A DNA stretch of 64,000 nt, taken from the NCBI RefSeq assembly GCF_018860635.1, contig NZ_JAHKPT010000029.1, positions 1-64,000 on the forward strand, written 5' to 3'. A model generated the notes under the pieces. It ran no database searches. It was given only the letters and a program-made list of their open reading frames with translations, and was not told the origin of the DNA. Shown piece after piece: positions 40,487 to 54,366 of the stretch (the stretch's first letter is position 1; every line of letters starts with the position of its first letter). This DNA is from Aliiglaciecola lipolytica. GTDB lineage: Bacteria; Pseudomonadota; Gammaproteobacteria; Enterobacterales; Alteromonadaceae. Both the position numbers and the translations under genes were made by a program.

Positions 40487-41446
40487 ATGTATACATCTGT
40501 GCGTCAATTTCTGGTTTTATTGCTATCAGTGATTATATTACTCACTGGTTGCTCGGCTAAAAGAGTCTTGACCCAAGCCGAATTACAAGAGCTCGATGAG
40601 CACAATCAGTTATTCAATGATGCTGAGCAGTTTGTACATGCTAATCTTTTTACAGCTATGGTGCATGTGAGAGCAACCAATCTAGCCGATTGGAATGCGC
40701 TCTTAATCGCTTATTCGTGCTCTGCAGATATAGACCACAGTACCCTCGATAACTCCTATAATCGCAATCAACCGATTTTTACCGAGGCGATGAAGACGCT
40801 AGCCGAACAGGAAAATTTATTTACGGCCGAACAACAACAAGATGTTTTGACCGACGTTTCACAACTTGCTTATCGTCTATTTAGTATTAGTTACGCGAAA
40901 GGCTACGCCCGCCAGATTGAACTCGCCGACGACCTATCGCCAGGCATACGTGAAGAGTTGTGTGATGGCAAAGTAGGGGGGCTGAATAGCCCTTACCTAG
41001 GATATCGTAACTCAGTAGCTTGGCGCTCGTTTAATACGCCTTTATTGAAAAGCCTGAATGGGTTACAAGCGCATGCTCGAAATGGTGATAAAGCATTCCA
41101 AATTTTGCTTAATCAACAATATGTACAATTTGATGCATTAGTTTACAGTCACGCCTATCAGCAGACCGATGCTTATCAATCGTTATTTTTTGAAGTAAAT
41201 AAGTTTGAAAACGTAGAACTTTATGGCAACGAAGTATCCAAGTTATCACCTCAAATTAGCGATATAAAAGCGCAAAATAAACACAATGATTTTGCCTATT
41301 TAGTGTTATCTTCTGGCTATCATTGGGGCATGATGTCGGTGTTGGCTATGCTAGAAGAAGAATATCCGAGGGTGCATGATCTTAAAAAAGCCCAAGCGAC
41401 TCAAATGGTTTTAGAAACGTTAAAAAACTTGCAAGATAGCGCTTAG
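40487..41446 (+). CDS. Putative lipoprotein of unknown function
   Basis: A 319-residue protein with an N-terminal membrane stretch and a lipobox LLTGC (Cys about residue 20 from ATG 40487), so it is probably lipid-anchored. The rest is mainly helical, with no motif I recognise. GAGG lies about 10 nt before ATG 40487; an upstream in-frame start at 40469 would add six residues without a better signal. Its stop overlaps that of the converging DUF3718 gene by four bases. It has no obvious tie to acyl-CoA enzymes. Confidence 0.65.
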   Translation: MYTSVRQFLVLLLSVIILLTGCSAKRVLTQAELQELDEHNQLFNDAEQFVHANLFTAMVHVRATNLADWNALLIAYSCSADIDHSTLDNSYNRNQPIFTEAMKTLAEQENLFTAEQQQDVLTDVSQLAYRLFSISYAKGYARQIELADDLSPGIREELCDGKVGGLNSPYLGYRNSVAWRSFNTPLLKSLNGLQAHARNGDKAFQILLNQQYVQFDALVYSHAYQQTDAYQSLFFEVNKFENVELYGNEVSKLSPQISDIKAQNKHNDFAYLVLSSGYHWGMMSVLAMLEEEYPRVHDLKKAQATQMVLETLKNLQDSA

Positions 41447-41838
41447 ATTTTGTTTGATAAAGTGATCGCAATGGGGGAGTCACTCAAATTTTTGTCATCG
41501 ATCCATTGTTGTAATGTTTTACCATCGGATTCTGGCAAACGTAAATTCAATTTTGGTAATTTTTTGATTAATAGCTCAGCCGTTTGGTAGGCATCATTGA
41601 TTATGGCTGCTCTAATTAAACTCTGCCCATCACAACTAATACTATTATAATAATGTCGCAGCTTTAGTCGGTAATGTTTGTTAACTTCCTCGATTTTATT
41701 TCGTAAGTCTGATGAATCATCGGAAACCACGATAGTGCATATATTCATCAAAGTTGAATTGATATCAGCCTTTGCCTTGGTGGCAAAAACGATATTTGCC
41801 AGAAAAATAGACATCAAAAAAAATAGTATTTTTGGCAA
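41443..41838 (-). CDS. DUF3718 family secreted protein
   Basis: A 131-residue protein with a signal peptide (hydrophobic 4-19, cleavage near AKADI). The mature part has the DUF3718 pattern: ICTIVVSDD, LRNKIEEVNKHYRLKLRHYYNSISCDGQSLIRAA, ELLIKKLP, with two Cys that could pair. It is a diverged paralogue of the genes at 51937 and 52693. Start is a TTG after GGAGA. It begins 37 bp after the PEP-CTERM-like gene on the same strand, so both are likely transcribed from the promoter beyond 42421. Function of the family is unknown. Confidence 0.75.
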   Translation of the reverse strand: MPKILFFLMSIFLANIVFATKAKADINSTLMNICTIVVSDDSSDLRNKIEEVNKHYRLKLRHYYNSISCDGQSLIRAAIINDAYQTAELLIKKLPKLNLRLPESDGKTLQQWIDDKNLSDSPIAITLSNKI

Positions 41839-41875: not shown

Positions 41876-42421
41876 TTAGGTGGTTTTACGTAGCAGACTC
41901 TTTTGCCTTGTGCGTAAGCGACTTCTAAGCGCTATCACACCAATTAAAAACAGTAAAACAGTCGGTGCATTTGACACTGCTGCTGCATTGTTAGTGAAGT
42001 TCAATAATATGTAATCTTGCGATGACCAACGAGTATTATGTAAATTAAACGCTAGGAGTTCACCGTCAAAATCAATGTCTGACGCATCAAATCCCACCAC
42101 CGCGGTAATGAGATCAAAATCACTTGCAGAGAACAGGTTAGGCAGCAAAGAAAAGCTCAGTAATTCGTTTGCTCTCAACTGTAAATTGCTCTGAAGATTA
42201 CTGATCAGTAATGAGTCGCTTTCAAAATTAACACTGAAGTACGCGTTACCCATCAACAGGATATTAAATTCGCTATTGTTCTCTTGAGCAACTGAAATTC
42301 TGTTATCACATTCCCACAAAATTGAAGGTTCTATGTCACAAGCGACTTGTGTGCCTATGATCGAAGCATTCGCTGACCATGAAAAAATCACGAGCAGGAA
42401 GGAGACTGTAAATACTTTCAT
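41876..42421 (-). CDS. Secreted protein with PEP-CTERM-like C-terminal anchor
   Basis: A 181-residue protein: signal peptide 1-19 (ending ANA), a beta-rich middle, and a C-terminus SNAPTVLLFLIGVIALRSRLR. A short motif with Pro, a hydrophobic helix and an Arg-rich tail is the layout of exosortase sorting signals; here the motif reads N-A-P instead of P-E-P. Such variants are seen in Alteromonadales. It is likely sorted to the surface or exopolysaccharide. It leads a probable two-gene unit with DUF3718, with the shared dyad motif upstream. No exosortase gene is in the window. Confidence 0.6.
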   Translation of the reverse strand: MKVFTVSFLLVIFSWSANASIIGTQVACDIEPSILWECDNRISVAQENNSEFNILLMGNAYFSVNFESDSLLISNLQSNLQLRANELLSFSLLPNLFSASDFDLITAVVGFDASDIDFDGELLAFNLHNTRWSSQDYILLNFTNNAAAVSNAPTVLLFLIGVIALRSRLRTRQKSLLRKTT

Positions 42422-42501
42422 TCTGGGAAAGGCCTTTAACGAATAAAAAACGGTTAATAGCTCAATTTAAAGTGATTTAGAAGGTGAAAGGAAGTCATTG
42501 C

Positions 42502-42529
42502 TTGATACATCGGTATGAGTACTTATACC
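42502..42529 (-). promoter_or_regulatory. Shared dyad motif upstream of the PEP-CTERM/DUF3718 unit
   Basis: On the plus strand TTGATAC-N3-GGTAT-N7-TATACC. The same elements with the same spacing recur at 52421-52448 and 53181-53208, each 80-93 bp before a gene start on the minus strand. GGTAT and ATACC form an inverted pair with an 8-nt gap. Confidence 0.6.
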
Positions 42530-42586
42530 TGATGGCGGCATATCACAAAGCAGATTTTGCTTCATGATATACCGTTTTATAGTGGC

Positions 42587-44230
42587 TTAATGAGGAAATT
42601 CGTAGTCTTTGTAGTTGTCTCTTAATGCCAATTTATTAAGTTTTCCGGTGGCTGTATGCGGAAGTTCGTTGGCAAATACAACATCTTCAGGAAGCGACCA
42701 TTTGTGGATTTTGTCTTTCAAATAATCAATGACATCATCGCGGCTTAAGTTGGCGTTTTCATTTTGAACCACCACTAGAAGAGGTCGTTCTGTCCATTTA
42801 GGATGATAACGTCCTATTGCCGCCGCTTCGGCTATCTGTGGGTGACTTGCAGCGGCATTTTCAATGTCGATAGAACTTATCCACTCACCTCCAGACTTAA
42901 TCACATCTTTGGTTCTATCGGTTATTTGCAAATATCCTTGTGGATCTATAGTCGCAACGTCACCGGTATTCATCCAACCATCTTCATCAACTGGGCAGTC
43001 ATCGTCTCCAGGGGTTTGTGACATGCCGTAGTAGCCGGTTGCAATCCACGGTCCTTTCACTTTTAGGGCCCCAAATGCCACTCCGTCCCAAGGTAACTCA
43101 TTGTTTTCGTCATCGACTATTTTCATTTCAACGCCAAATACGGTTTTACCTTGTTTGAGTCGAAGTTCAGTATCTTCTTCATCGGAGAGGTTTTCCATGC
43201 CCGGCATTAAGGTAAATAAGGTACCTAGTGGGCTCATTTCCGTCATGCCCCAACCTTGTTTTACTTCTGTTTGATAATCATGTTTGAAGCGTTCAATGAT
43301 ACCTCTAGGACAAGCCGCACCGCCAGCAGTGACACACTTCAAAGTGGGTATCTTTTTGCCGGTTTTATCTAAGTACTCTAACAACGCCATCCATATTGTG
43401 GGGACACCAGAGCTGAGGGTAACGCCTTCGTTTTCAATTAGGGATTGTAATGTTTCTCCGTCAGCCATTTTAGGCCCCGGCATCACTAGCTTACTTCCAA
43501 CCATCACACCAGCATAGGGAATACCCCAAGCATTTACATGGAACATCGGCACTATGGGGAGGGTAACGCTGTTACTAGACGCGCATGTTGCATCAGGTAA
43601 GGAGCCTGCATAGGCGTGCAGTACCGTTGAACGGTGGCTGTACACTACGCCTTTAGGGTTACCTGTGGTACCTGAGGTGTAACACATACCCGCAGCGGTA
43701 TTTTCATCAAACTCTGGCCATTGATAGTTGTCATCAAATTGCGCTATGAGCTCCTCGTAACAGATAACGTTTTTAATAGTCGTTTCTGGCATATGTTGTC
43801 GGTCGGTCAACACCACAATTTTTTCAACACTTTTGAGATGATTCTGCAAGGCTTCAACTAATGGCATTACTAATACATCAACAAACAACACTTTATCTTC
43901 TGCGTGGTTGATAATGTAATTGACTTGCTCAGGGAAAAGTTTTGGATTAATCATATGGCAAACCATGCCAGTGCCAGAAATAGCATAGTAAAGTTCTAGG
44001 TGCCGATAATCATTCCACGCTAATGTGCCTACGCGATCTCCAAATTTAACTCCCATTGATTCCAAAGCATTGGCTAATTGGCGGGTGCGTTTGGCAAAAT
44101 CTGCGTAGGTATATCGATGTCGTGGATTGTCTGCGGTAACAGATACTATTTCACGAGTGGGGAAGTTTTTTTCAGCATGACGCAATATTGACGATATCAT
44201 CAATTGCGTATTCATCATTAGTCCTTTCAT
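42587..44230 (-). CDS. Acyl-CoA synthetase (AMP-binding)
   Basis: A 547-residue adenylate-forming ligase. P-loop [16 protein letters not shown], motif [13 protein letters not shown], the ATP-contact [22 protein letters not shown] and the C-terminal hinge [13 protein letters not shown] with catalytic Lys in [10 protein letters not shown] are present. The sequence type is medium- to long-chain fatty-acyl-CoA ligase (AlkK/LvaE-like). It activates a free acid for the neighbouring beta-oxidation enzymes. Start 44230 follows TAGGAG; an in-frame ATG four codons on is possible. It follows the SDR gene on the same strand across a repeat array. Confidence 0.87.
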
Positions 44231-44329
44231 GTATCAGCTCCTATTAAGCTAACTAGATTGTGATTAAAATCGAGAAATTATTTTTCGGAAAGTTCAGCGT
44301 TTGCTTTTTACTAAAAAATTGAATCAATG

Positions 44330-44475
44330 CCCCAAGCTATGACGCTGATTTACCGGGCGTCAACGCTATTTTCATCAAACGTTGACGCTATGTTTATTAG
44401 GTGCTTAGGCTATTTTTTTACCAAGCGCTGAGACTACTCTTACCAAGCGCTGACGTTACTTTTACCAAGCGCTGA
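44330..44475. repeat. Array of degenerate 22-bp tandem repeats
   Basis: TACCAAGCGCTGA recurs at 44419, 44441 and 44463, exactly 22 bp apart, and weaker copies occur at about 44395, 44373, 44351 and 44332. The copy at 44463 includes the final codons (V-S-A-W-stop) of the SDR gene, so the array seems to have grown from the gene's 3' end, with copies decaying with distance. Confidence 0.75.
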
Positions 44476-45229
44476 CTGCACCATCAATCGCGATGGTTTG
44501 ACCGCTCATATATGAGTTTCCAGGAGATAAAATCAGTATCATGGTGTTGACTATTTCCTGAGGTTGGCCCAATCGTCGCATCGGTGATCCTTGTGCTAAG
44601 CGTTGTTGATTTTCTGGTGAATCAAAACCGTCTAACGCTAAGATATTGGTCGGACTATAAAAAGGGCAGATAGCGTTTGCGCGTATGCCCTTTTTGGCAT
44701 ATTCCACCGCAGCAGTGCGAGTTAGACCTACCACCGCATGTTTGGCAGCTGCATAAGCTGCTCCTTTTGGAGCACCACCGATTCCGGCCATTGAACTTAG
44801 GTTCAAAATATGACCAAAACCTTGTTTTAACATGGCTTCAATTTGATACTTCATGCCAAACAGGACACCATTTACATTTACCGCCATTTGGCTGTCCATT
44901 GTCGCTTGATCTATTTTATGCAGAGGCGTTAAGTGATGGGCGATTCCTGCGTTGTTGACGCCGATGTCGAGTCTGCCGAAATTTTCAATTGCAGCATCAA
45001 CCATCGCCTTAACTTGATCTTCTTTGCTTACATCACAAAGCATTGATATTACTTTGTTTTCTCCCAATTTAAGGGATGAAACCGTATTCGCAAGTTCTTC
45101 ACTGTTGATGTCACTAATGACTAAGTTACAACCCCTCGCTGCCAAACCTTGTGAAAGTAAACGACCAAATCCACTGGCAGCTCCTGTTATCATGGCCACT
45201 TGGCCGCTAAAATCGAGAAGTGAGTCCAA
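44462..45229 (-). CDS. Short-chain dehydrogenase/reductase
   Basis: A 255-residue classical SDR: cofactor loop TGAASGFGR (16-24), VNNAG, catalytic Ser in NLSSMAG, and YAAAKHA (Tyr and Lys). It likely oxidises or reduces a hydroxyacyl or keto group of an acyl-CoA or related alcohol. An SDR (LvaD-type) also belongs to levulinate-like pathways. Its last codons lie in the 22-bp repeat array. It is upstream of the acyl-CoA synthetase on the same strand and diverges from the fadB-like gene. Confidence 0.85.
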   Translation of the reverse strand: MDSLLDFSGQVAMITGAASGFGRLLSQGLAARGCNLVISDINSEELANTVSSLKLGENKVISMLCDVSKEDQVKAMVDAAIENFGRLDIGVNNAGIAHHLTPLHKIDQATMDSQMAVNVNGVLFGMKYQIEAMLKQGFGHILNLSSMAGIGGAPKGAAYAAAKHAVVGLTRTAAVEYAKKGIRANAICPFYSPTNILALDGFDSPENQQRLAQGSPMRRLGQPQEIVNTMILILSPGNSYMSGQTIAIDGAVSAW

Positions 45230-45601
45230 AAAATGTACCTTCTTTTAAAATGGTTTAAATAATATTTACAGCCCATCAATCCTTACTTCTTGGATGAAGT
45301 ATCGTTGGTGTTTAACTACAAAAGTGAGTTGTAACCAACTAATTTTCTAAGGGATAAATAACGTTTTTGTGTTAACGGTATGTAAAGCTATGTATCTAGA
45401 AAATCAGATGCAAAACCGAAAGTCAATATCTAAGAATTCCCTGTTTACGGGCAGTTAGCCTTATAATCAACAAAATCAACCGCTATCAGCTATATCAATT
45501 TCATTTATTTGCAATTATAAAATCAATAAATTTGGATGATTGAGTGGGCTGGCCTAGTATCAGCGTTCTAATGAATTATTAATCTTTAAATTGAGGATTT
45601 T
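45230..45601. other. Divergent gap between SDR and fadB-like gene
   Basis: About 370 AT-rich bp with no gene. It must hold promoters for both directions, but I found no clear -35/-10 pair or fatty-acid regulator site. Confidence 0.35.
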
Positions 45602-47722
45602 ATGAGCACTGAACAATCTGCTGCTGTAGTAAGTCAAAATCAAGGTGAGATTGCCTTAGTTATGATGCAAAACCCGCCTGTTAATGCATTATCGAAGTCG
45701 GTACGTGTAGGACTAATTGATGAAATAAAAAGGGCCTTGGACGATTCAAGTATCAAAGCAATTGCCATTTCCTCTCAGTTAGGATTATTTTCTGGCGGGG
45801 CAGATATCAGTGAATTTTCCTCAGGAGACATGGAGCCGTTGTTACCGGTAGTACTGGATTTGATTGAGAATGCTAACAAGCCAATCATTGCAGTGTTAAA
45901 TGGTCCAGCTTTTGGTGGTGGACTGGAAGTCGCTTTGGCCTGTCATTACAGAATTACTTTTGCAGATAATAAAATTGGCTTGCCAGAAGTTAACCTAGGA
46001 ATTCTGCCTGGTGCAGGTGGTACTCAGCGTTTACCTCGTTTAGCCGGCGTGGCAAAAGCATTGGATATGATAGTTTCTGGTAAACCGGTTAAAGCATCCG
46101 CAGTGACTGGAGTTTTTGACTTAATTGTTGAGCAGCCAGCAAACTTACTAAACGAAAGTCTCGCATTTATCACTGCTCTGATTAAAGACGGTTGTTCAAT
46201 TAAACGAGTGAAAGATATTGAAATCGACCCAGCGACTGCTCCGGCAGAGTTGTTTGCTCAATATCGTCAAGGTATTGCCAAACAAGCCCGCGGATTTTTC
46301 TCTCCAGAAAGATGTATTCAAGCCGTCGAGGCCGCCGTTAGTTTGCCTTTAGAAAAAGGCCTCGAAAAAGAAGGCGAATTGTTTATGGAGTGCATGAAAT
46401 CTCCACAAGCAAGAGCTCAACAGCATTTTTTCTTTGCGGAAAGAGCTGCAGGACACGTTTCTGATTTCGACAAAAACACCCCAGTTCGAGAAATTAAAAA
46501 GGTCGGTATTATTGGTGCTGGCACCATGGGTGGCGGGATCGCAATGAATTTTGCCAATGCTGGTATCCCTGTGGTTATGCTTGAACTTAAGCAAGAGGCT
46601 CTTGATAAAGGGCTAGGCGTTATTCGTCGTAACTACGAAAACTCTGCGAAAAAAGGCAAGCTCAGTCAACAAGACGTTGAAGCTCGTATGGCCTTGCTAC
46701 AAGGCACCACTGAATATGCTGGTCTAGCGGATGTTGATCTAGTAATCGAAGCTGTATTTGAAAAGATGGACGTGAAAAAGCAAGTTTTCACTCAACTTGA
46801 TGCCGTGTGTAAACCAGGTGCTATTTTGGCATCCAATACCTCTACTTTGGATGTGAATGAAATAGCCGCTTGTACCTCGAGACCTGAAGACGTGATTGGT
46901 TTGCACTTTTTCAGTCCGGCAAACGTGATGAAACTGCTAGAAGTGGTTAAGGGTGAAAAAACCTCGGCTGATGTAATCAAAACGAGTATGCAATTAGCTA
47001 AGAAAATTCGCAAAGTTGCGGTATTGGTTGGCGTTTGTTTTGGTTTTGTCGGCAACCGCATGATTGAACCTTACGGACGTGAATCTAACCGAATGATGTT
47101 AGAGGGCGCTTCCCCAGAGCATGTAGATAAAGTCATTTATGATTTTGGATTGCCTATGGGGCCATTCACTATGGGCGACATGGCAGGTTTAGACATAGGT
47201 TATTTTGTTCGTCAATCTCGACAAGAACATATTGCTCATGATCCTAGTTATGCCGTAGTAGCCGATCGTTTGGTTGAAGACGGTCGTGTAGGGTTAAAAG
47301 TGGGTAAAGGTGTTTATCTTTATGAGCAGGGTAACAGAAAGCCCATTTTGGATCCCGACGTAGCAGAAATTGCTAAACAAGAAGCTGAGCGTTTAGGCGT
47401 GGAGCAACGTCAGCATAGTGATCAAGAAATACTTGAGAGATGTATTTTCACATTAATTAACGAAGGTGCACATATTTTGGAAGAGGGCATTGCTGCCAAA
47501 TCCAGTGATATCGACGTTATTTATGTATATGGATACGGATTCCCTGTCCATCGTGGTGGCCCAATGCAATACGCTGATGAAATTGGTTTAGATAAAGTGT
47601 ATGCCGCGATGTGTAAATATCGTGATGAGTTGGGTGAATACGGGAAAGCGTGGTTTGAACCAGCGCCTTTGCTGAAAAAATTGGCTGAACAAGGCAAGCG
47701 ATTTTCTGACTTCCGTAAGTAA
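45602..47722 (+). CDS. Bifunctional enoyl-CoA hydratase / 3-hydroxyacyl-CoA dehydrogenase
   Basis: A 706-residue fusion with an N-terminal crotonase domain (GGADISEF, GPAFGGGLEVALACHYRI, GLPEVNLGILPGAGGTQRLPR with catalytic Glu) and, from about residue 298, a 3-hydroxyacyl-CoA dehydrogenase domain (GIIGAGTMGGGIAMNFANAG; LHFFSPANVMKLLEVV with catalytic His). The length and AMTxE-free crotonase type resemble the FadJ/peroxisomal class. It catalyses the middle two steps of beta-oxidation. The thiolase and a dehydrogenase follow, forming one operon. Start ATG after GAGGA. Confidence 0.92.
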   Translation: MSTEQSAAVVSQNQGEIALVMMQNPPVNALSKSVRVGLIDEIKRALDDSSIKAIAISSQLGLFSGGADISEFSSGDMEPLLPVVLDLIENANKPIIAVLNGPAFGGGLEVALACHYRITFADNKIGLPEVNLGILPGAGGTQRLPRLAGVAKALDMIVSGKPVKASAVTGVFDLIVEQPANLLNESLAFITALIKDGCSIKRVKDIEIDPATAPAELFAQYRQGIAKQARGFFSPERCIQAVEAAVSLPLEKGLEKEGELFMECMKSPQARAQQHFFFAERAAGHVSDFDKNTPVREIKKVGIIGAGTMGGGIAMNFANAGIPVVMLELKQEALDKGLGVIRRNYENSAKKGKLSQQDVEARMALLQGTTEYAGLADVDLVIEAVFEKMDVKKQVFTQLDAVCKPGAILASNTSTLDVNEIAACTSRPEDVIGLHFFSPANVMKLLEVVKGEKTSADVIKTSMQLAKKIRKVAVLVGVCFGFVGNRMIEPYGRESNRMMLEGASPEHVDKVIYDFGLPMGPFTMGDMAGLDIGYFVRQSRQEHIAHDPSYAVVADRLVEDGRVGLKVGKGVYLYEQGNRKPILDPDVAEIAKQEAERLGVEQRQHSDQEILERCIFTLINEGAHILEEGIAAKSSDIDVIYVYGYGFPVHRGGPMQYADEIGLDKVYAAMCKYRDELGEYGKAWFEPAPLLKKLAEQGKRFSDFRK

Positions 47723-47759
47723 AGAACTATAAACATTGTAAAGAATTTAAGGATTGATT

Positions 47760-48941
47760 ATGAAAGAAGCAGTTATTGTTTCAACAGCACGTACACCAAT
47801 TGGCAGAGCTTATCGCGGTGCCTTTAATAATCTAGAAGCGCCGAGTTTGGCTGGTCACGCAATTAGCGCAGCGGTTAAAAAAGCGGGTATTGATCCAGCA
47901 AGTGTCGATGACGTTATTTTAGGTAGTGCCCTTACTCAGGGTTCTGGTGGAATGAATATTGGTCGTTTAGGTGCCCTTGCTGGTGGCTTACCCGTTACTG
48001 TTGGTGGCATGACGTTAGATCGCCAATGTAGTTCAGGTATGTACGCTATTGCAACTGCGGCAAAACACATTATCACCGATAATGTGCCCGTTATGGTTGC
48101 CGGTGGATTGGACTCAATCAGTTTAGTTCAGAACGACAAAATGAATATGTATCGTGCGGTAGACAAAGCCTTAGTTGCCAAACACAAAGATATCTATATG
48201 CCAATGTTACAAACCGCAGAAGTGGTTGCTAATCGTTATGGTATTGGCCGTGATGAACAAGATGAATATGCCTATCAAAGTCAAATGCGCACTGCAGCGG
48301 CACAACAAGCCGGTAAGTTTGATGATGAAATAGTGCCAGTTACAGCAACAAAAGTTGTCGTCAACAAAGAAACAAAAGAGCAGAGCCTAGAAGAGGTGAC
48401 TCTGACTAAGGATGAGGGAAACCGAGCTGAGACTACCCTAGAGGGACTAAATAGCCTTAAACCGGTCATTGAAGGTGGTTGTATTACTGCGGGTAATGCT
48501 AGCCAACTATCTGACGGTGCATCAGCCAGCGTTATGATGGACAGTAAATTAGCTGAGCAATTAAACCTTACCCCCCTTGGCGCGTATAGAGGAATTGCTG
48601 TGGCTGGTTGTGAACCAGATGAAATGGGTATTGGTCCCGTTTTCGCTATCCCCAAACTGCTGAAGCAACATGGTTTGAAAATAGAAGATATTGGCCTTTG
48701 GGAATTGAATGAAGCATTTGCCGTGCAAGTGCTTTATTGCCAGAAAACCCTTGGCATTCCTGCTGAATTACTGAATGTAAATGGCGGCGCTGTGTCGATT
48801 GGTCACCCTTACGGAATGAGTGGCGCACGTATGGTTGGACATGCGTTGATTGAAGGTAAGCGTAGAGGTGCGAAATACGTAGTCTGCACCATGTGTATAG
48901 GCGGCGGAATGGGCGCGGCCGGCTTATTTGAAGTGTATTAA
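47760..48941 (+). CDS. Acetyl-CoA acyltransferase (thiolase)
   Basis: A 393-residue thiolase. Nucleophilic C90 in [22 protein letters not shown] (Asn/His region), [17 protein letters not shown] with catalytic His, and [16 protein letters not shown] with the second Cys. It cleaves 3-ketoacyl-CoA to acetyl-CoA and a shortened acyl-CoA. ATG 47760 follows AAGGA at good distance; an in-frame TTG two codons earlier is less likely. It lies 37 bp after the hydratase/dehydrogenase fusion. Confidence 0.93.
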
Positions 48942-48965
48942 AGAATAATAAAGGTAGTAAAAAAT

Positions 48966-50765
48966 ATGCAAAATTATAAATCTCCGGTACGTGATACCTT
49001 GTTCGTTATGAACGAACTGCTTGGTTTCGAAAAGCATTATGAAAAATTAGGTTTTGAAGATGCAAACCCTGAAATGGTCGAAGCTATTACCGCCGAAGCG
49101 GCAAAGTTTACAGAAAATGTTTTAGCACCAATTAATGCAATTGGTGATGAAGTTGGGTGTAAGTGGGAAGACGGCAATGTCACAACCCCTCCTGGGTTCA
49201 AAGAAGCGTACAAAACCTATTGCGAGGGTGGTTGGCCTTCGATGACCCACCCAGTTGAATACGGTGGTCAAGCATTACCGTACTCATTGGCCTCAGCTAT
49301 TGCTGAGTGGACATCTGGTGCAAACCATTCGTGGGCTATGTATCCTGGCTTGAGTCAGGGGTGTATCGCTACAATTACTAGTCACGGTACCGACGAACAG
49401 AAACAAACTTTCTTGCCACCTCTTATTGAAGGTCGTTGGACAGGGACTATGTGTTTGACTGAGTCCCATTGTGGTTCAGATTTGGGGATGTTGAAAACCA
49501 AAGCTGTACCAAATGATGATGGTACTTATAGCCTGACTGGAACTAAAATATTTATTTCTGCTGGTGAGCATGATTTTTCTGAAAACATTGTGCATATCGT
49601 TCTAGCCCGTTTACCAGATGCGCCTGCAGGAACTAAAGGTATTTCTCTTTTCGTTGTGCCTAAGTTCAACGTAAATGAGCAAAGTGAAGTTCTTGACCGC
49701 AATAACGTTGCATGTGGTTCTATTGAACACAAAATGGGGATCAAAGCCAGTGCCACTTGTGTTATCAACTTTGATAACGCTAAGGGATATCTAATTGGTC
49801 CTCCAAACCGCGGTTTGAACTGCATGTTCACCTTTATGAACACCGCTAGAATCGGTACTGGTTTGGAAGGTCTAGCTGGCACCGAAGCTGCGTTCCAAGG
49901 TGCATTAGCCTACGCCAAAGATAGATTGCAGTTCCGTTCTACAAAAGGTCCGGTTAATCCAGAAGGTCCTGCAGATCCAATTATCGTTCATCCAGATGTT
50001 CGTCGTATGTTGTTGACCCAAAAAGCCTTTGCTGAGGGCAATCGCGCTCTGGCAATTTACTGTATGCAAATGGTGGATATCACTCTATACAGTGAAAATG
50101 AAGAAGAAAAACAAGTAGCTGAAGCTAAGCTTGCTTTATTAACACCGATTGTTAAGGCTTTCTTAACGGAAACCGCTCAAGAGACAACCAGTTATGGTAT
50201 GCAAGTATATGGCGGACACGGATTCATCAAAGAGTGGGGAATGGAGCAACTAGCCCGTGATACTCGAATCTGTACTATGTATGAAGGAACGACCGGTATT
50301 CAAGCTATCGATTTGTTGGGGCGTAAAATTCTTGGTTCCAATGGCGAATTGCTGAAAACATTTATTAAGGAAGTTCAAGAATATTGCTTGAGTGTAAGAG
50401 ATAAATCACAATTTAATGCTTGGTCTAATGCAATTGAATCACACATTGATGAGTGGTCTCAAATGACTCAGGAAATAGCCAAACGTGCAGCCGGAAATCC
50501 TGATGAAGTGGGCGCAGCGTCTGTGGACTACTTAATGTATTCTGGCTACATTATTGTTGGCTACCTATGGCTTAAAATGGCTGTCGTTGCCCAGCAAAAG
50601 TTAGATGAAGGAACTTCAGAAGTTGCGTTCTACGAAGCAAAACTGAAAACTGCTGGTTTCTACTTTGCTCGATTACTTTCACGCACGCGTTCTCATGCTT
50701 CGGCAATAGAAACCGGCTCTGAAAACTTAATGAGCATGCCAGTTGATTATTTCATGATTGACTAA
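48966..50765 (+). CDS. Long acyl-CoA dehydrogenase (FadE-type)
   Basis: A 599-residue flavoprotein of the long ACAD class with an extra C-terminal domain. FAD/substrate motifs TMCLTESHCGSDLGMLKT and the C-terminal catalytic region YGGHGFIKEWGMEQ...TMYEGTTGIQAIDL, with the usual Glu in YEG, are present. It opens beta-oxidation of saturated acyl-CoA, in contrast with the Asp-bearing ACAD10/11-type enzyme at 37080. It closes the fadB/thiolase operon before a strong terminator. Confidence 0.92.
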   Translation: MQNYKSPVRDTLFVMNELLGFEKHYEKLGFEDANPEMVEAITAEAAKFTENVLAPINAIGDEVGCKWEDGNVTTPPGFKEAYKTYCEGGWPSMTHPVEYGGQALPYSLASAIAEWTSGANHSWAMYPGLSQGCIATITSHGTDEQKQTFLPPLIEGRWTGTMCLTESHCGSDLGMLKTKAVPNDDGTYSLTGTKIFISAGEHDFSENIVHIVLARLPDAPAGTKGISLFVVPKFNVNEQSEVLDRNNVACGSIEHKMGIKASATCVINFDNAKGYLIGPPNRGLNCMFTFMNTARIGTGLEGLAGTEAAFQGALAYAKDRLQFRSTKGPVNPEGPADPIIVHPDVRRMLLTQKAFAEGNRALAIYCMQMVDITLYSENEEEKQVAEAKLALLTPIVKAFLTETAQETTSYGMQVYGGHGFIKEWGMEQLARDTRICTMYEGTTGIQAIDLLGRKILGSNGELLKTFIKEVQEYCLSVRDKSQFNAWSNAIESHIDEWSQMTQEIAKRAAGNPDEVGAASVDYLMYSGYIIVGYLWLKMAVVAQQKLDEGTSEVAFYEAKLKTAGFYFARLLSRTRSHASAIETGSENLMSMPVDYFMID

Positions 50766-50804
50766 TAGTAAACTTGGTTAGACTACACAGGTTTATGTTT
50801 GATA

Positions 50805-50833
50805 AAAGCGGATGATATTTCATCCGCTTTTTT
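50805..50833 (+). terminator. Intrinsic terminator of the beta-oxidation operon
   Basis: AAAGCGGATGA (50805-50815) and TCATCCGCTTT (50820-50830) with a following T-run. Confidence 0.9.
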
Positions 50834-50869
50834 ATTTACTCTGAACTAAGCAAAATTTTGGATACGTCT

Positions 50870-51769
50870 ATGCAAAGTAAACTCGCCCAAATTGATGACT
50901 GCTACATTCATTATGTAGAAATGTGTGATTGTGACGCTCCCAAGGGAACTCTGATATTTTTACACGGTTTTCCAGAAAATTGGCGAACCTGGCGAAATCA
51001 AATGACCCACTTTTGTAAACACTACCGAGTGATTGCCCCTGATCTTCCGGGTTATAATCAATCATCTAAGCCAAACGATATAGAATTTTATCAAGTTACT
51101 AATTTAGTCGAAGTGTTGAGTAGGTTTGTAACTTTTGTTGCTGCAGGACAGCCTGTTTCACTTATTGCCCACGATTGGGGTGGGGCAATCGCCTGGCCAC
51201 TTGTGGCTTTTCATGCAGATTTGTTTTCCAGTTTAGTGATTTTAAACGCAGCTCACCCGAGCACTTTTACCCGTGAAATGATAAGCAATCAAGTGCAACG
51301 AGAAAAAAGCGGCTACATACATCAACTTATTGCATCTGATGCGATTGAAAAAGTATCAGAAGATGATTTTCGCTTTTTAAAAGATATGTTCTTGGATGAA
51401 AATGGTAATTCTGCTTTGACCCCTGCAGAAATATTGGAATACCAACAAAGTTGGCAAATCTCTGGGGTTTTAGATGCAATGTTAAATTACTATCGAGTCA
51501 TGCCTCAGTTAGCACCAGTTAATACTAATGGGCATGCTTCTGGGCCTGTTAAAGATACACAAAAGATGAAGATCCCTAATATAAGAATCAATGTACCAAC
51601 ATTAGTGCTGTGGGGGATTCGTGATTTAGCGTTTGTTCCTGAGATATTAAATGGTTTAGATGATTATGTGCCCAATCTAAAAGTGGTTAGGTTTGAGAAT
51701 GCAAATCACTGGTTGCATCACCAATATCCTCAACAGGTAAATGAGCAAATTGAACGTTTTTTAGGTTAG
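50870..51769 (+). CDS. Alpha/beta hydrolase with Asp nucleophile (epoxide hydrolase-like)
   Basis: A 299-residue cytosolic hydrolase. The oxyanion motif FLHGFPENW and the elbow IAHDWGGAIAW with D102 in place of Ser place it with epoxide hydrolases and haloalkane/fluoroacetate dehalogenases. A late ANHWLHHQYP supplies the catalytic His, and LVLWGIRD the acid. Start ATG 50870; an in-frame TTG four codons upstream is the alternative. It follows the beta-oxidation operon after a terminator, and may open oxidised lipids, but the substrate is unknown. Confidence 0.82.
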   Translation: MQSKLAQIDDCYIHYVEMCDCDAPKGTLIFLHGFPENWRTWRNQMTHFCKHYRVIAPDLPGYNQSSKPNDIEFYQVTNLVEVLSRFVTFVAAGQPVSLIAHDWGGAIAWPLVAFHADLFSSLVILNAAHPSTFTREMISNQVQREKSGYIHQLIASDAIEKVSEDDFRFLKDMFLDENGNSALTPAEILEYQQSWQISGVLDAMLNYYRVMPQLAPVNTNGHASGPVKDTQKMKIPNIRINVPTLVLWGIRDLAFVPEILNGLDDYVPNLKVVRFENANHWLHHQYPQQVNEQIERFLG

Positions 51770-51847
51770 TCAGCCTTGGTCTATAGACGCTATTACTAGT
51801 ATGTAATGTTGTTTATCAATATTCATATTTTGTTTGATTAAACGAAA

Positions 51848-51869
51848 AACAGCCTCAAAAGAGGCTGTT
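51848..51869 (-). terminator. Terminator of DUF3718 copy 1
   Basis: AACAGCCTC (51848-51856), loop AAAA, GAGGCTGTT (51861-51869). Read on the minus strand it is followed by TTTTTCGTTT. Confidence 0.85.
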
Positions 51870-51871
51870 TC

Positions 51872-51936
51872 CCGAGGACGTAGGCAGCGCCCTGCCTACT
51901 TACCATGTTGAACTGGTTCAGTTCTAAGTAAAGTCC
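51872..51936 (-). other. Structured 3' UTR of DUF3718 copy 1
   Basis: Between stop codon and terminator lie two hairpins: GTAGGCAG (51880-51887) with CTGCCTAC (51892-51899), and GAACT (51910-51914) with AGTTC (51920-51924). Both recur in copy 2, with a base-pair swap in the first. Confidence 0.65.
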
Positions 51937-52332
51937 TTAGATGCGATCTTTAATCACCGCTGAGATAGGAGAAGCATCTAAGCCATTCTCTGCTATCCAT
52001 GCTTGCAATGTTTTTCCATCACTCTCTGGAGAGGTTAGGTCTGACTTTGGCATTTTTTTCACCATAAGCGTACCCGTTTCAATGGCGTCACTTAACATTG
52101 CTGTGCGGATTAGGCTGTTTCCGTCGCAGGATACACCTGTGTAATAGTCTTTTAATTTTAATCTGTAGTCAGATTGTACTTTTTTCATCTTCTTGCGAAG
52201 CTCACCTTTGTCATCAGTTTTCACGATGGTGCAAATATTTTGCAAAGCATCATTAATATCTGCTTGGGCTGTACCCGCAAGTAACAAAGAAGTGGCTGCG
52301 ATGGCGATAGAAGTTTTAACAATTTTCAACAT
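51937..52332 (-). CDS. DUF3718 family secreted protein, tandem copy 1
   Basis: A 131-residue protein: signal peptide 1-24 (ending AGTAQA), then the DUF3718 pattern ICTIVKTDDKGELRKKMKKV, DYRLKLKDYYTGVSCDGNSLI and LMVKKMP, with two Cys likely to pair in the periplasm. It is highly basic after the first Cys. It differs from copy 2 at seven residues only and the flanks are alike, so a segment of about 756 bp was duplicated. Function unknown. It has its own upstream dyad motif, leader and terminator, so it is probably a single-gene unit. Confidence 0.85.
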   Translation of the reverse strand: MLKIVKTSIAIAATSLLLAGTAQADINDALQNICTIVKTDDKGELRKKMKKVQSDYRLKLKDYYTGVSCDGNSLIRTAMLSDAIETGTLMVKKMPKSDLTSPESDGKTLQAWIAENGLDASPISAVIKDRI

Positions 52333-52600
52333 GGTTAAATTCCTCAGTAGTTAAAATTTTTGGTTCACGTTTTGACGGGATTAATTAAAAACGATTTCAC
52401 GGCACATTAAAATCTGCGCCTTGATACTTGGGTATGCGAAGCTATACCATAATGTGTGTGATATTGCCTAAAATACTGATATATATGATTAATATTTAAT
52501 TTTAAAAGTCTGTAAAAACGCATTTTTACTTTTTTGAGGTGTGTATAACTTGAGTTTTGGATTAAAAATTTGAGCTTAATAAATCCGTTACTAATAACGA
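52333..52600 (-). promoter_or_regulatory. Leader and upstream region of DUF3718 copy 1
   Basis: About 270 bp without a gene. It contains the dyad motif (52421-52448), 89 bp before the start, and lines up with the region upstream of copy 2, with more divergence than the coding part. Confidence 0.5.
52421..52448 (-). promoter_or_regulatory. Shared dyad motif upstream of DUF3718 copy 1
   Basis: TTGATAC-N3-GGTAT-N7-TATACC on the plus strand, with the same spacing as the motifs at 42502 and 53181. Confidence 0.6.
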
Positions 52601-52626
52601 AAAACAGCCTCAAATGAGGCTGTTTT
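52601..52626 (-). terminator. Terminator of DUF3718 copy 2
   Basis: AAAACAGCCTCA (52601-52612) and TGAGGCTGTTTT (52615-52626), the counterpart of the copy 1 terminator. Confidence 0.85.
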
Positions 52627-52692
52627 CCGAGGATGTAGACAGCGCACGTCTACTTACCATGTTGAACTGGTTTAGTTCTTTATAAAAAGTCT
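52627..52692 (-). other. Structured 3' UTR of DUF3718 copy 2
   Basis: GTAGAC (52635-52640) pairs with GTCTAC (52648-52653), and GAACT (52664-52668) with AGTTC (52674-52678). Relative to copy 1 the first stem has G changed to A on one side and C to T on the other, keeping the pair. Confidence 0.65.
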
Positions 52693-53088
52693 TTAGATGC
52701 GATCTTTGATCACGGCAGAAATAGGTGAGGCATCTAAGCCATTTTCTGCTATCCAAGCTTGTAATGTTTTACCGTCCTTTTCAGGAGTCGTTAAATCAGA
52801 TTTTGGCATTTTTTTAACCATTAATGTGCCCGTTTCAACAGCATCACTTAACATGGCTGTGCGTATTAGACTGTTCCCGCCACAGGACACACCGGCGTAA
52901 TAATCTTTTAATTTTAGTCTGTAATCTGACTGCACTTTTTTCATCTTCTTACGAAGCTCACCCTTATCATCGGTTTTTACAATAGTGCAAATGTTCTGCA
53001 AAGCATCGTTAATATCTGCTTGGGCGGTTCCCGTTAATATTAAAGACGTGGCTGCGATGGCGATAGAAGTTTTAACAATTTTCAACAT
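52693..53088 (-). CDS. DUF3718 family secreted protein, tandem copy 2
   Basis: A 131-residue near-twin of the previous gene, with the same signal peptide type (ending TGTAQA), the same two Cys and the same C-terminus SPISAVIKDRI. Differences include A for T after DYY and G for D in SCGGNSL. It likely duplicated recently, and the third copy at 41443 is much more diverged. Role unknown; the family is small, secreted and found mainly in marine Gammaproteobacteria. Confidence 0.85.
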   Translation of the reverse strand: MLKIVKTSIAIAATSLILTGTAQADINDALQNICTIVKTDDKGELRKKMKKVQSDYRLKLKDYYAGVSCGGNSLIRTAMLSDAVETGTLMVKKMPKSDLTTPEKDGKTLQAWIAENGLDASPISAVIKDRI

Positions 53089-53180
53089 GGCTAAATTCCT
53101 CAGTAAATAAAATTAATTGTTGTGTCTGCGTTTGACGGGGTTGATTAAACGCGGGTTTTACACCAGTTAAAATCTAACTG

Positions 53181-53208
53181 TTGATACTAAGGTATAGAGC
53201 CTTATACA
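53181..53208 (-). promoter_or_regulatory. Shared dyad motif upstream of DUF3718 copy 2
   Basis: TTGATAC-N3-GGTAT-N7-TATACA on the plus strand, 93 bp before the gene start. Only the last base departs from the other two sites. Confidence 0.58.
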
Positions 53209-53310: not shown

Positions 53311-54213
53311 TTAGTGGTGATTAAATTGGCGGGCCACTTCTAAAATCTGTTCCCGCATCCAAATGTGCGCATGGTCATGATCTGCGCTTACGTGCCAATA
53401 CAGATAGTGTTCTACCAATGGAACTTCAAAGGGCATTTCATAAAATGACAGGTCATAGTGTTTTGCGAGGTGATAGGGAATACACGCAATCAAATCTGTT
53501 TTTACTATGATACTGGGAATAGTCAAAAAATGTTGGCCACGCAATACTATTTTGCGTCGTTTACCAATTTTGTCTAATGCTAATTCAATTGGGCCGGGAT
53601 CGCTGCGTCGATGGGATACATTGACTTGGCCGAGTCGCAAAAATGTTTCTAAATCAATACCATTACGCAAATCTGGGTGATTTTTCCGTGCCATCACCAC
53701 AAATCTATCTTGGGCAAATTGATGTTTGCACAAGTGTGGATCAGTGAAGGTTGATGAGTCAGCAAAGAAATCTAAACTACCACTTGCCATCGCGGACACG
53801 ACCGCATTTCGAGACAGTTCAAAATTCGTTATTGCTATTTTAGGGGCTCTGGTTTGCAAATTGGCAAGTAGCCTGGGCATTAAACTCGCTTCAAAAAGAT
53901 CTCGGGTGGCAAAGTGAAAGGTTTTTTCAGCTGTTTCAGGATTAAAAGTATGGCTGTCTTGCACACTTTTTCTTAACAATGAGAGTGCATCCCTAGCAGG
54001 TCCAATAATATTTTGAGCGACTGGAGTAGGGGTCATACTATGACCCGTACGCACGAACAATGGGTCATTCAACATATCCCGTAATCGAGCAAGGGAGTTA
54101 CTAACGGCTGGTTGGGTAATACATAAAACATCTGCTGCTTTGGTAAGACTGCCAGCGGTATAAATCGCATCAAAAACAGCAAATAAATTCAAGTCAATTC
54201 GATTTAAATTCAT
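53311..54213 (-). CDS. LysR-family transcriptional regulator
   Basis: A 300-residue regulator: N-terminal winged helix (LNLFAVFDAIYTAGSLTKAADVLCITQPAVSNSLARLR) and a C-terminal effector-binding domain. ATG 54213 follows AGGATCC, while an upstream in-frame start at 54237 has no such signal, and MNLNRIDLNLF is the usual beginning of this NodD-like subgroup. It diverges from the MaoC hydratase, so it probably controls it, and perhaps the TonB receptor and fatty-acid genes. The inducer is unknown. Confidence 0.87.
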   Translation of the reverse strand: MNLNRIDLNLFAVFDAIYTAGSLTKAADVLCITQPAVSNSLARLRDMLNDPLFVRTGHSMTPTPVAQNIIGPARDALSLLRKSVQDSHTFNPETAEKTFHFATRDLFEASLMPRLLANLQTRAPKIAITNFELSRNAVVSAMASGSLDFFADSSTFTDPHLCKHQFAQDRFVVMARKNHPDLRNGIDLETFLRLGQVNVSHRRSDPGPIELALDKIGKRRKIVLRGQHFLTIPSIIVKTDLIACIPYHLAKHYDLSFYEMPFEVPLVEHYLYWHVSADHDHAHIWMREQILEVARQFNHH

Positions 54214-54366
54214 ATGGATCCTATATTTAAATTTCACATAACCAAGACGGATAGTTTATTAAAAATCATGATAGAACATTATACATAACATTCATTTCAT
54301 TAATAGTGGTTAGGTTGGTAAGATTTAAAATATTTGTTAATTAATGTAAATAAATGAAGGTGATAC

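Follow-up and report, generated by a model that had tools for sequence, protein, structure and literature searches.

In Pseudomonas and other Gammaproteobacteria, the CrbS/R (MxtR/ErdR) regulon is described as comprising acetate-use targets that carry the ACTU motif, a short inverted repeat which was found by promoter comparison and is needed for activation by the LuxR-family protein CrbR (PMC5715377). Here, we analyzed a 64,000-nt stretch of the Aliiglaciecola lipolytica genome (contig NZ_JAHKPT010000029.1, positions 1 to 64,000; hereafter the window), in which a motif of three spaced half-sites precedes genes of the DUF3718 family (PF12514). As a kind of system, this would be a transcription-factor regulon, which is a known kind; no paper was found under either family name in a library of 5.39 million open-licence papers, and nothing similar by title among Alteromonadales regulons. 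We consider it likely that, in Alteromonadaceae, the motif forms the upstream portion of a stereotyped promoter module which, via an activator, switches on one secreted DUF3718 subfamily along with a small number of other secreted proteins.

The motif TTGATAC-N3-GGTAT-N7-TATAC occurs without mismatch on the plus strand at positions 42502-42528, 52421-52447, and 53181-53207. Read in the sense of the minus-strand genes, the 27-bp motif is GTATA-N7-ATACC-N3-GTATCAA, and the individual sites are GGTATAAGTACTCATACCGATGTATCAA (42502), GGTATAGCTTCGCATACCCAAGTATCAA (52421), and TGTATAAGGCTCTATACCTTAGTATCAA (53181). An earlier note on this DNA had reported three exact sites of the same spacing and orientation at 81, 89, and 93 bp from gene starts, and both coordinates and distances (81-93 bp for starts at 42421, 52332, and 53088) were confirmed. 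With up to three mismatches allowed, the window contains these three sites only (shuffled sequences: mean 0.23, with 0/100 reaching three). Across the 36 contigs of the genome (5.03 Mb), no other match with zero to two mismatches exists; all three are exact, and the 17 additional matches with three mismatches represent background (20 in total vs 19 for the reversed pattern). The three window proteins named as DUF3718 all match PF12514 (56.7-74.5 bits vs a gathering threshold of 22.5). That all three DUF3718 units carry the motif holds within the window; the genome has eight PF12514 matches, including a weak one interrupted by stop codons, and a refined matrix (score cut-off of 10) located the motif before five of these eight, namely the three in the window (for one, in front of the PEP-CTERM-like gene that precedes it) and two elsewhere. 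The sites outside the window precede DUF3718 genes on contigs C13 (position 91812, score 23.7) and C11 (position 1652, score 18.6), and DUF3718 genes on C25, C1, and C4 have no motif by the matrix.

A much larger sample was available from relatives. PF12514 is present in 68 of 98 related genomes among the matches listed, which also supplied, together with the own genome, 149 distinct DUF3718 genes of both subfamilies with upstream DNA; some of these genes came via motif-pattern loci (e.g., L058), giving a small bias towards the motif, and at least three PF12514 matches were left out (G021:C1:432324, G046:C10:14037, and G072:C5:322716). Within 350 bp upstream of the 149 genes, the motif was found with zero to two mismatches in 19 and with zero to three in 42 (none in shuffled sequence), and the matrix, trained on 57 sites, scored at least 10 in 65/149 (shuffled, 0/149). 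As an independent set, 71 named DUF3718 loci were selected purely on protein similarity; they come from the best 80 of 218 stretches and so represent the relatives nearest to the window (Aliiglaciecola, Paraglaciecola, Alteromonas, Aestuariibacter, and Salinimonas); 58 lie outside the training genomes, independence being judged by genome, and no site repeats a training site (121/121 distinct). The motif was detected in 56 of these 58 loci (shuffled, 0/58). In one of the two misses, the contig extends only 121 bp upstream of the gene, and the other has a degenerate copy in place (score 9.5). The earlier note had let its proposal depend on the motif being commoner than in shuffled sequence and being present before orthologous DUF3718 genes; three exact sites in the window exceed the shuffles, and the orthologues have the motif.

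This conservation is nearly restricted to one DUF3718 subfamily; the proposed shared cis element reaches far outside the window and is at the same time largely confined to a part of the family. Motif-bearing members read NIC-x-IV and LRKK, and no motif was found among the ICEYV-type genes examined (ICEYVAADDK). By a crude residue rule, the motif stands before 62/70 genes inside the subfamily and 2/78 outside it, the latter two reading like diverged members. Searches by pattern also exceeded their controls: the core pattern gave 107 matches vs 24 for its reversal in 58 genomes (per-genome table summed), and a composite of motif and downstream hexamer gave 105 matches in 32 of 196 family genomes vs 3 reversed, with up to seven composite promoters per genome. 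Of 31 composite sites in 30 loci, 23 precede DUF3718 genes, three precede genes for 91-94-aa proteins, two run off a contig end, and three appear to be chance matches. The neighbourhoods of the 71 named loci vary, with fatty-acid degradation genes and a LysR-family gene in 24 and alcohol dehydrogenase-like, mechanosensitive-channel, transaldolase, fumarase, or DNA polymerase genes beside other DUF3718 genes (signal peptides, names of neighbouring genes, and the PEP-CTERM label were assigned by eye throughout). The motif is thus conserved at several unrelated chromosomal places, and the same site recurs at several unlinked units above chance.

Two features of these loci were observed in passing. 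In several assemblies (L171-L173, L232, L318, L322, L376, and L379), a contig ends no more than a few hundred bases from a DUF3718-type promoter, as one would expect if near-identical copies were present in a genome. In G007 (C1:1621882-1632315, L090), a segment of a LysR-family gene and two DUF3718 genes occurs twice, about 8.2 kb apart and with equal scores, which is probably a recent tandem duplication.

Alignment of the promoters on the motif revealed a constant layout, in which TTTAG-GTAT-N8-ATACC-(T)(A)(A/T)-GTAT-CA is followed by AGATTTTT at positions 33-40, T at 54, and TTTAAT at 59-64. The spacing is rigid: GTAT-N8-ATACC-N3-GTAT, then 34 bp, then TTTAAT. The 11 core columns hold 1.7-2.0 bits each, and six of the eight spacer columns hold less than 0.5 (the other two, 0.5-0.7). 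TTTAAT with at least five of six matches is present at an offset of 58-60 in 56/56 independent promoters (shuffled, 3) and 50/65 training promoters (shuffled, 5), so the distance to the hexamer is fixed. The distance to the start codon varies (77-132 in the independent set and 72-116 in the training set); this difference links the motif to the start of transcription rather than of the gene. Pairing of the half-sites in RNA is conceivable, yet no covariation was found: position 1 is T or A in 35/121 sites, and its partner stays C. The missing compensatory changes speak against a structured RNA leader or hairpin and leave a DNA site as most likely. The arrangement GTAT-N8-ATAC-N4-GTAT is asymmetric, and the pair of dimers that the earlier note had read from the alternating half-sites finds no support in it.

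If TTTAAT is the -10 hexamer, transcription would start near position 71, and the motif would occupy approximately -70 to -47. We infer that this is the case, that the regulator activates, and that it is one protein. In the proposed mechanism, a putative DNA-binding activator would recognize GTAT-N8-ATACC-N3-GTAT at this position and make up for a poor -35 in the AGATTTTT region and for an atypical -10 (TTTAAT) that always lies equally far downstream; the copies in one genome would then respond to one signal. Against TTGACA at a 17-bp spacer, 116/121 promoters match at only one to three of six -35 bases; with spacers of 16-18 bp, 24/121 reach four, and after shuffling of the spacers, 15/121 reach four or five. 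An activator touching RNA polymerase is favoured by where the site lies, by the weakness of the -35, and by the constant phase relative to the hexamer. Three half-sites would be usable by a repressor too; a repressor operator is nevertheless unlikely, as the motif's end would lie roughly 10 bp before the -35 region, where activators typically bind, and as that region is itself weak.

We regard as similarly unlikely that an alternative sigma factor recognizes the module or just its TTTAAT hexamer, in which case the three half-sites would serve as an activator site or as an extended element. This idea draws on the T in place of A at the second hexamer position, found in 95% of the 56 independent promoters, and on the nearly invariant T36-T38 and T54. 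However, the GTAT half-sites lie at least 34 bp before TTTAAT, which is too far for a -35, and we know of no alternative-sigma consensus that fits the module. A measure of house-keeping -10 elements was uninformative on TTTAAT, since TATAAT itself was not enriched by it. Even less credible, and in our view extremely improbable, is that the motif, read on the plus strand, serves as a sigma-70 promoter for divergent transcription (TTGATA-N16-TATACC). A sigma-70 scan does mark both tandem motifs on the plus strand (TTGATA, 18 bp, TACCAT or TACATT), but such sites occur at the level of shuffled sequence (4 found, mean 4.5), the conserved ATACC block would sit in the spacer, and the -10 bases are not all conserved (position 5).

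Targets other than core DUF3718 genes were also examined. Those of the own genome are the three window units, the DUF3718 genes on C13 and C11, and a 99-aa gene on C2. Proteins of 96-103 aa have the motif in seven of eight genus genomes examined, the eighth being 59% complete, and are divergent relatives of DUF3718 (98.1% in a profile comparison, partly over the signal peptide). The PEP-CTERM-like gene has the motif in G000, G001, and G003, with a DUF3718 gene behind it each time. In this unit, the -10-like hexamer keeps its offset from the motif in the own genome, in another assembly of the species, and in one further species; in a third species, TATATA stands at the hexamer place behind the motif (counted along the sequence). 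Co-regulation of this surface protein, as claimed in the earlier note, is matched by the motif in three species of one genus and not by the homologues in G004 and G007, which lie elsewhere with no motif and no DUF3718 gene within the approximately 3.5 kb examined. Where the motif is shared, the small secreted DUF3718 proteins and the surface protein would be switched on together. The protein matched no Pfam or NCBIfam family at E <= 0.01, the PEP-CTERM profile included, and an exosortase is present in the own genome. Further secreted proteins of 91-94 aa stand behind six composite promoters (three in Alteromonas, one in Aestuariibacter, and one each in L368 and L371); their profile has no match to DUF3718 (probability 0.3%), and in L368 and L371 no DUF3718 neighbour lies within the 3 kb examined. 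Single matches before a flagellin gene and a 7TM-sensor gene, in one genome each, were excluded from the targets, and a match at a PadR gene (G109, L319), which has its own repeats by eye, was taken as chance.

Two other sets of sites were recorded outside the composite matches. In G007 (L230:2362-2784) and G029 (L208:1631-2047), genes whose 139-141-aa products contain two CNG segments and match DUF3718 weakly have upstream motif scores of 29.8 and 26.6, respectively. In two species, a motif-like site (L217:3251-3274, score 17.7; L218:2802-2825, score 20.6) lies upstream of a DeoR-type gene next to glmS and points away from the DeoR-type gene.

Several results weigh against the activator-driven module. 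As a probe, the full pattern of the earlier note is poor: the proposed genome scan singles out the window sites in the own genome, and over 98 genomes the pattern with up to two mismatches barely beats its reversal (84 vs 74 matches), for which reason the search went by DUF3718 genes instead. Eight of the 70 subfamily members lack the motif directly upstream, among them the gene behind the PEP-CTERM-like gene and another probably misassigned by the residue rule. The genera of G012 and G050, for example, possess the subfamily but not the motif. Six of 124 distinct composite promoters, drawn from loci often chosen for holding DUF3718, have no plausible secreted gene downstream. T at the second -10 position is unusual for sigma-70. 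The targets unrelated to DUF3718 mostly stand beside DUF3718 genes: the PEP-CTERM-like gene heads an operon with one, and four of the 91-94-aa genes (in Alteromonas and Aestuariibacter) lie about 0.4-1.8 kb behind one, so local promoter copying could explain both; moreover, identity of the 91-94-aa proteins to the first of their set is only 19-33%. Most targets are paralogues, which could have inherited promoter and gene together; the motif is almost a marker of a single clade, changing state six times on a tree of 148 genes, and the tandem copies in the window are 95% identical.

The main sober rival built on these last points is that the element is a relic, carried along in DUF3718 duplication and without present function. 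It would leave the invariant core among drifting spacers unexplained, as spacers diverge and 11 positions are nearly invariant across genera. A few genes of no detectable kinship have the motif as well. Within the species, a second genome (G205) has changes in the 52421 site solely at the non-core positions 11, 12, and 18, and the other two motifs, including that at 42502, are unchanged; these three changes are a very small sample. We therefore judge a functionless relic to be quite improbable. The earlier suggestion that the tandem pair may keep the motif by descent extends to most targets: descent explains the origin of the motif, and selection its invariant core.

In the window, each putative operator and its hexamer lie on the minus strand. 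The downstream gene of the tandem pair (51937..52332; 131 aa, signal peptide, two Cys; PF12514, 8.2e-21) has its three-half-site operator at 52421..52448 (matrix score 32.9) and the -10-like TTTAAT at 52384..52389, positions 59-64 from the first GTAT. Its upstream neighbour (52693..53088; 131 aa; 2.9e-19) has the operator at 53181..53208 (score 24.1) and TTTAAT at 53144..53149, at the same offset. A terminator-like hairpin 3' of the upstream gene (52598..52629, minus strand; consensus scan, 1 found vs a shuffled mean of 1.2) makes the two genes look like separate units, and a similar hairpin was seen by eye near 51848-51873. In the third unit, the operator (42502..42529, score 30.2), which also precedes the orthologues in G001 and G003, and the hexamer TTAAAT (42465..42470, same offset) precede the PEP-CTERM-like secreted protein (41876..42421, minus strand; 181 aa, C-terminal signal by eye). 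After 37 bp, the diverged DUF3718 gene follows (41443..41838, minus strand; TTG start as listed; 2.9e-15), the gene order being as the earlier note gave it. An acyl-CoA degradation-like cluster (44462-51769; FadB-like, thiolase, and acyl-CoA dehydrogenase) has the tandem pair at its end.

A LysR-family regulator gene (53311..54237, minus strand; PF00126 and PF03466) adjoins the tandem pair and was considered as the regulator; such a gene occurs in 24/71 named DUF3718 loci and in all genus genomes searched save the 59%-complete one. It was rejected by its distribution, not being present wherever the motif is: no orthologue was found at E <= 1e-60 in the motif-bearing genomes G020, G021, G025, and G029, and 47/71 loci have no LysR-family gene within the DNA examined. 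That this neighbour is the regulator is thus very unlikely.

AlphaFold2 on 41 sequences from the window and the named loci predicted a helical fold for DUF3718 proteins (mean predicted local distance difference test, 83.9). Nearly all of the best 50 matches in a structure search were ankyrin repeats or designed ankyrin repeat proteins (DARPins), or chains of entries holding one; the matches are weak (probability up to 0.99, best E 0.36, template modelling score about 0.5, and 0/487 at E <= 0.001). The protein is thus predicted to be ankyrin-like and may be a secreted, possibly disulphide-bonded binding protein. A wider proposal, possible though rather doubtful at present, is that a dedicated regulator, perhaps with a non-standard sigma factor reading TTTAAT, runs a secreted small-protein regulon of Alteromonadaceae, composed of such ankyrin-like proteins and of surface-anchored or other secreted partners. 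If true, these proteins would together make up a single surface or self-protection system that can be deployed. The DUF3718 family gains a testable handle, one sequence predicting both co-expressed genes and promoter location, and the module illustrates that exact promoter geometry can persist across a dispersed gene family even as spacers and 5' leaders drift.

In comparison with known systems, the self-protection protein of Bdellovibrio is reportedly a periplasmic ankyrin-repeat protein. Periplasmic proteins of this type and DUF3718 are alike in predicted fold, although the similarity is weak, DUF3718 has two conserved Cys, and its binding role is putative. For the regulator, a two-component response regulator of the NarL/FixJ (LuxR) type is a candidate only, chosen solely because the inner half of the motif, ATACC-N3-GTAT, shares its AC-N4-GT spacing with the CrbR site. 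Matches to the NarL-family DNA-binding domain number 14 in the own genome, 13 of them over the cut-off. Autoregulation of one of these genes was not indicated, the best motif score near the 14 matches being 8.7, below the cut-off. One NarL-family protein, the CsgD-like regulator of L346 (G000:C9), was rejected: it has no match at E <= 1e-15 in the motif-bearing genomes G002, G004, G006, G009, G011, G017, G021, G022, and G025, and is present in G014 and G015, whose DUF3718 genes have no motif. Its gene adjoins csgG- and csgF-like curli genes. Near another NarL-family response regulator gene (L348, G000:C15), a CrbR/ACTU-like site, GACTAAAGTC, unlike the DUF3718 sites, was seen on the minus strand near position 2186. 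The ACTU and DUF3718 motifs share an AC-N4-GT core and the form of a short inverted repeat upstream of scattered genes; in the account of ACTU given in PMC5715377, however, most sites read GAC or TAC-N4-GTC, and a third half-site goes unmentioned in its motif description. The DUF3718 sites depart from this form, the base after GT being A in 98% of 57 sites. The likeness to ACTU is therefore best taken not as membership of that regulon but as a lead to the class of regulator that may read the DUF3718 promoters.

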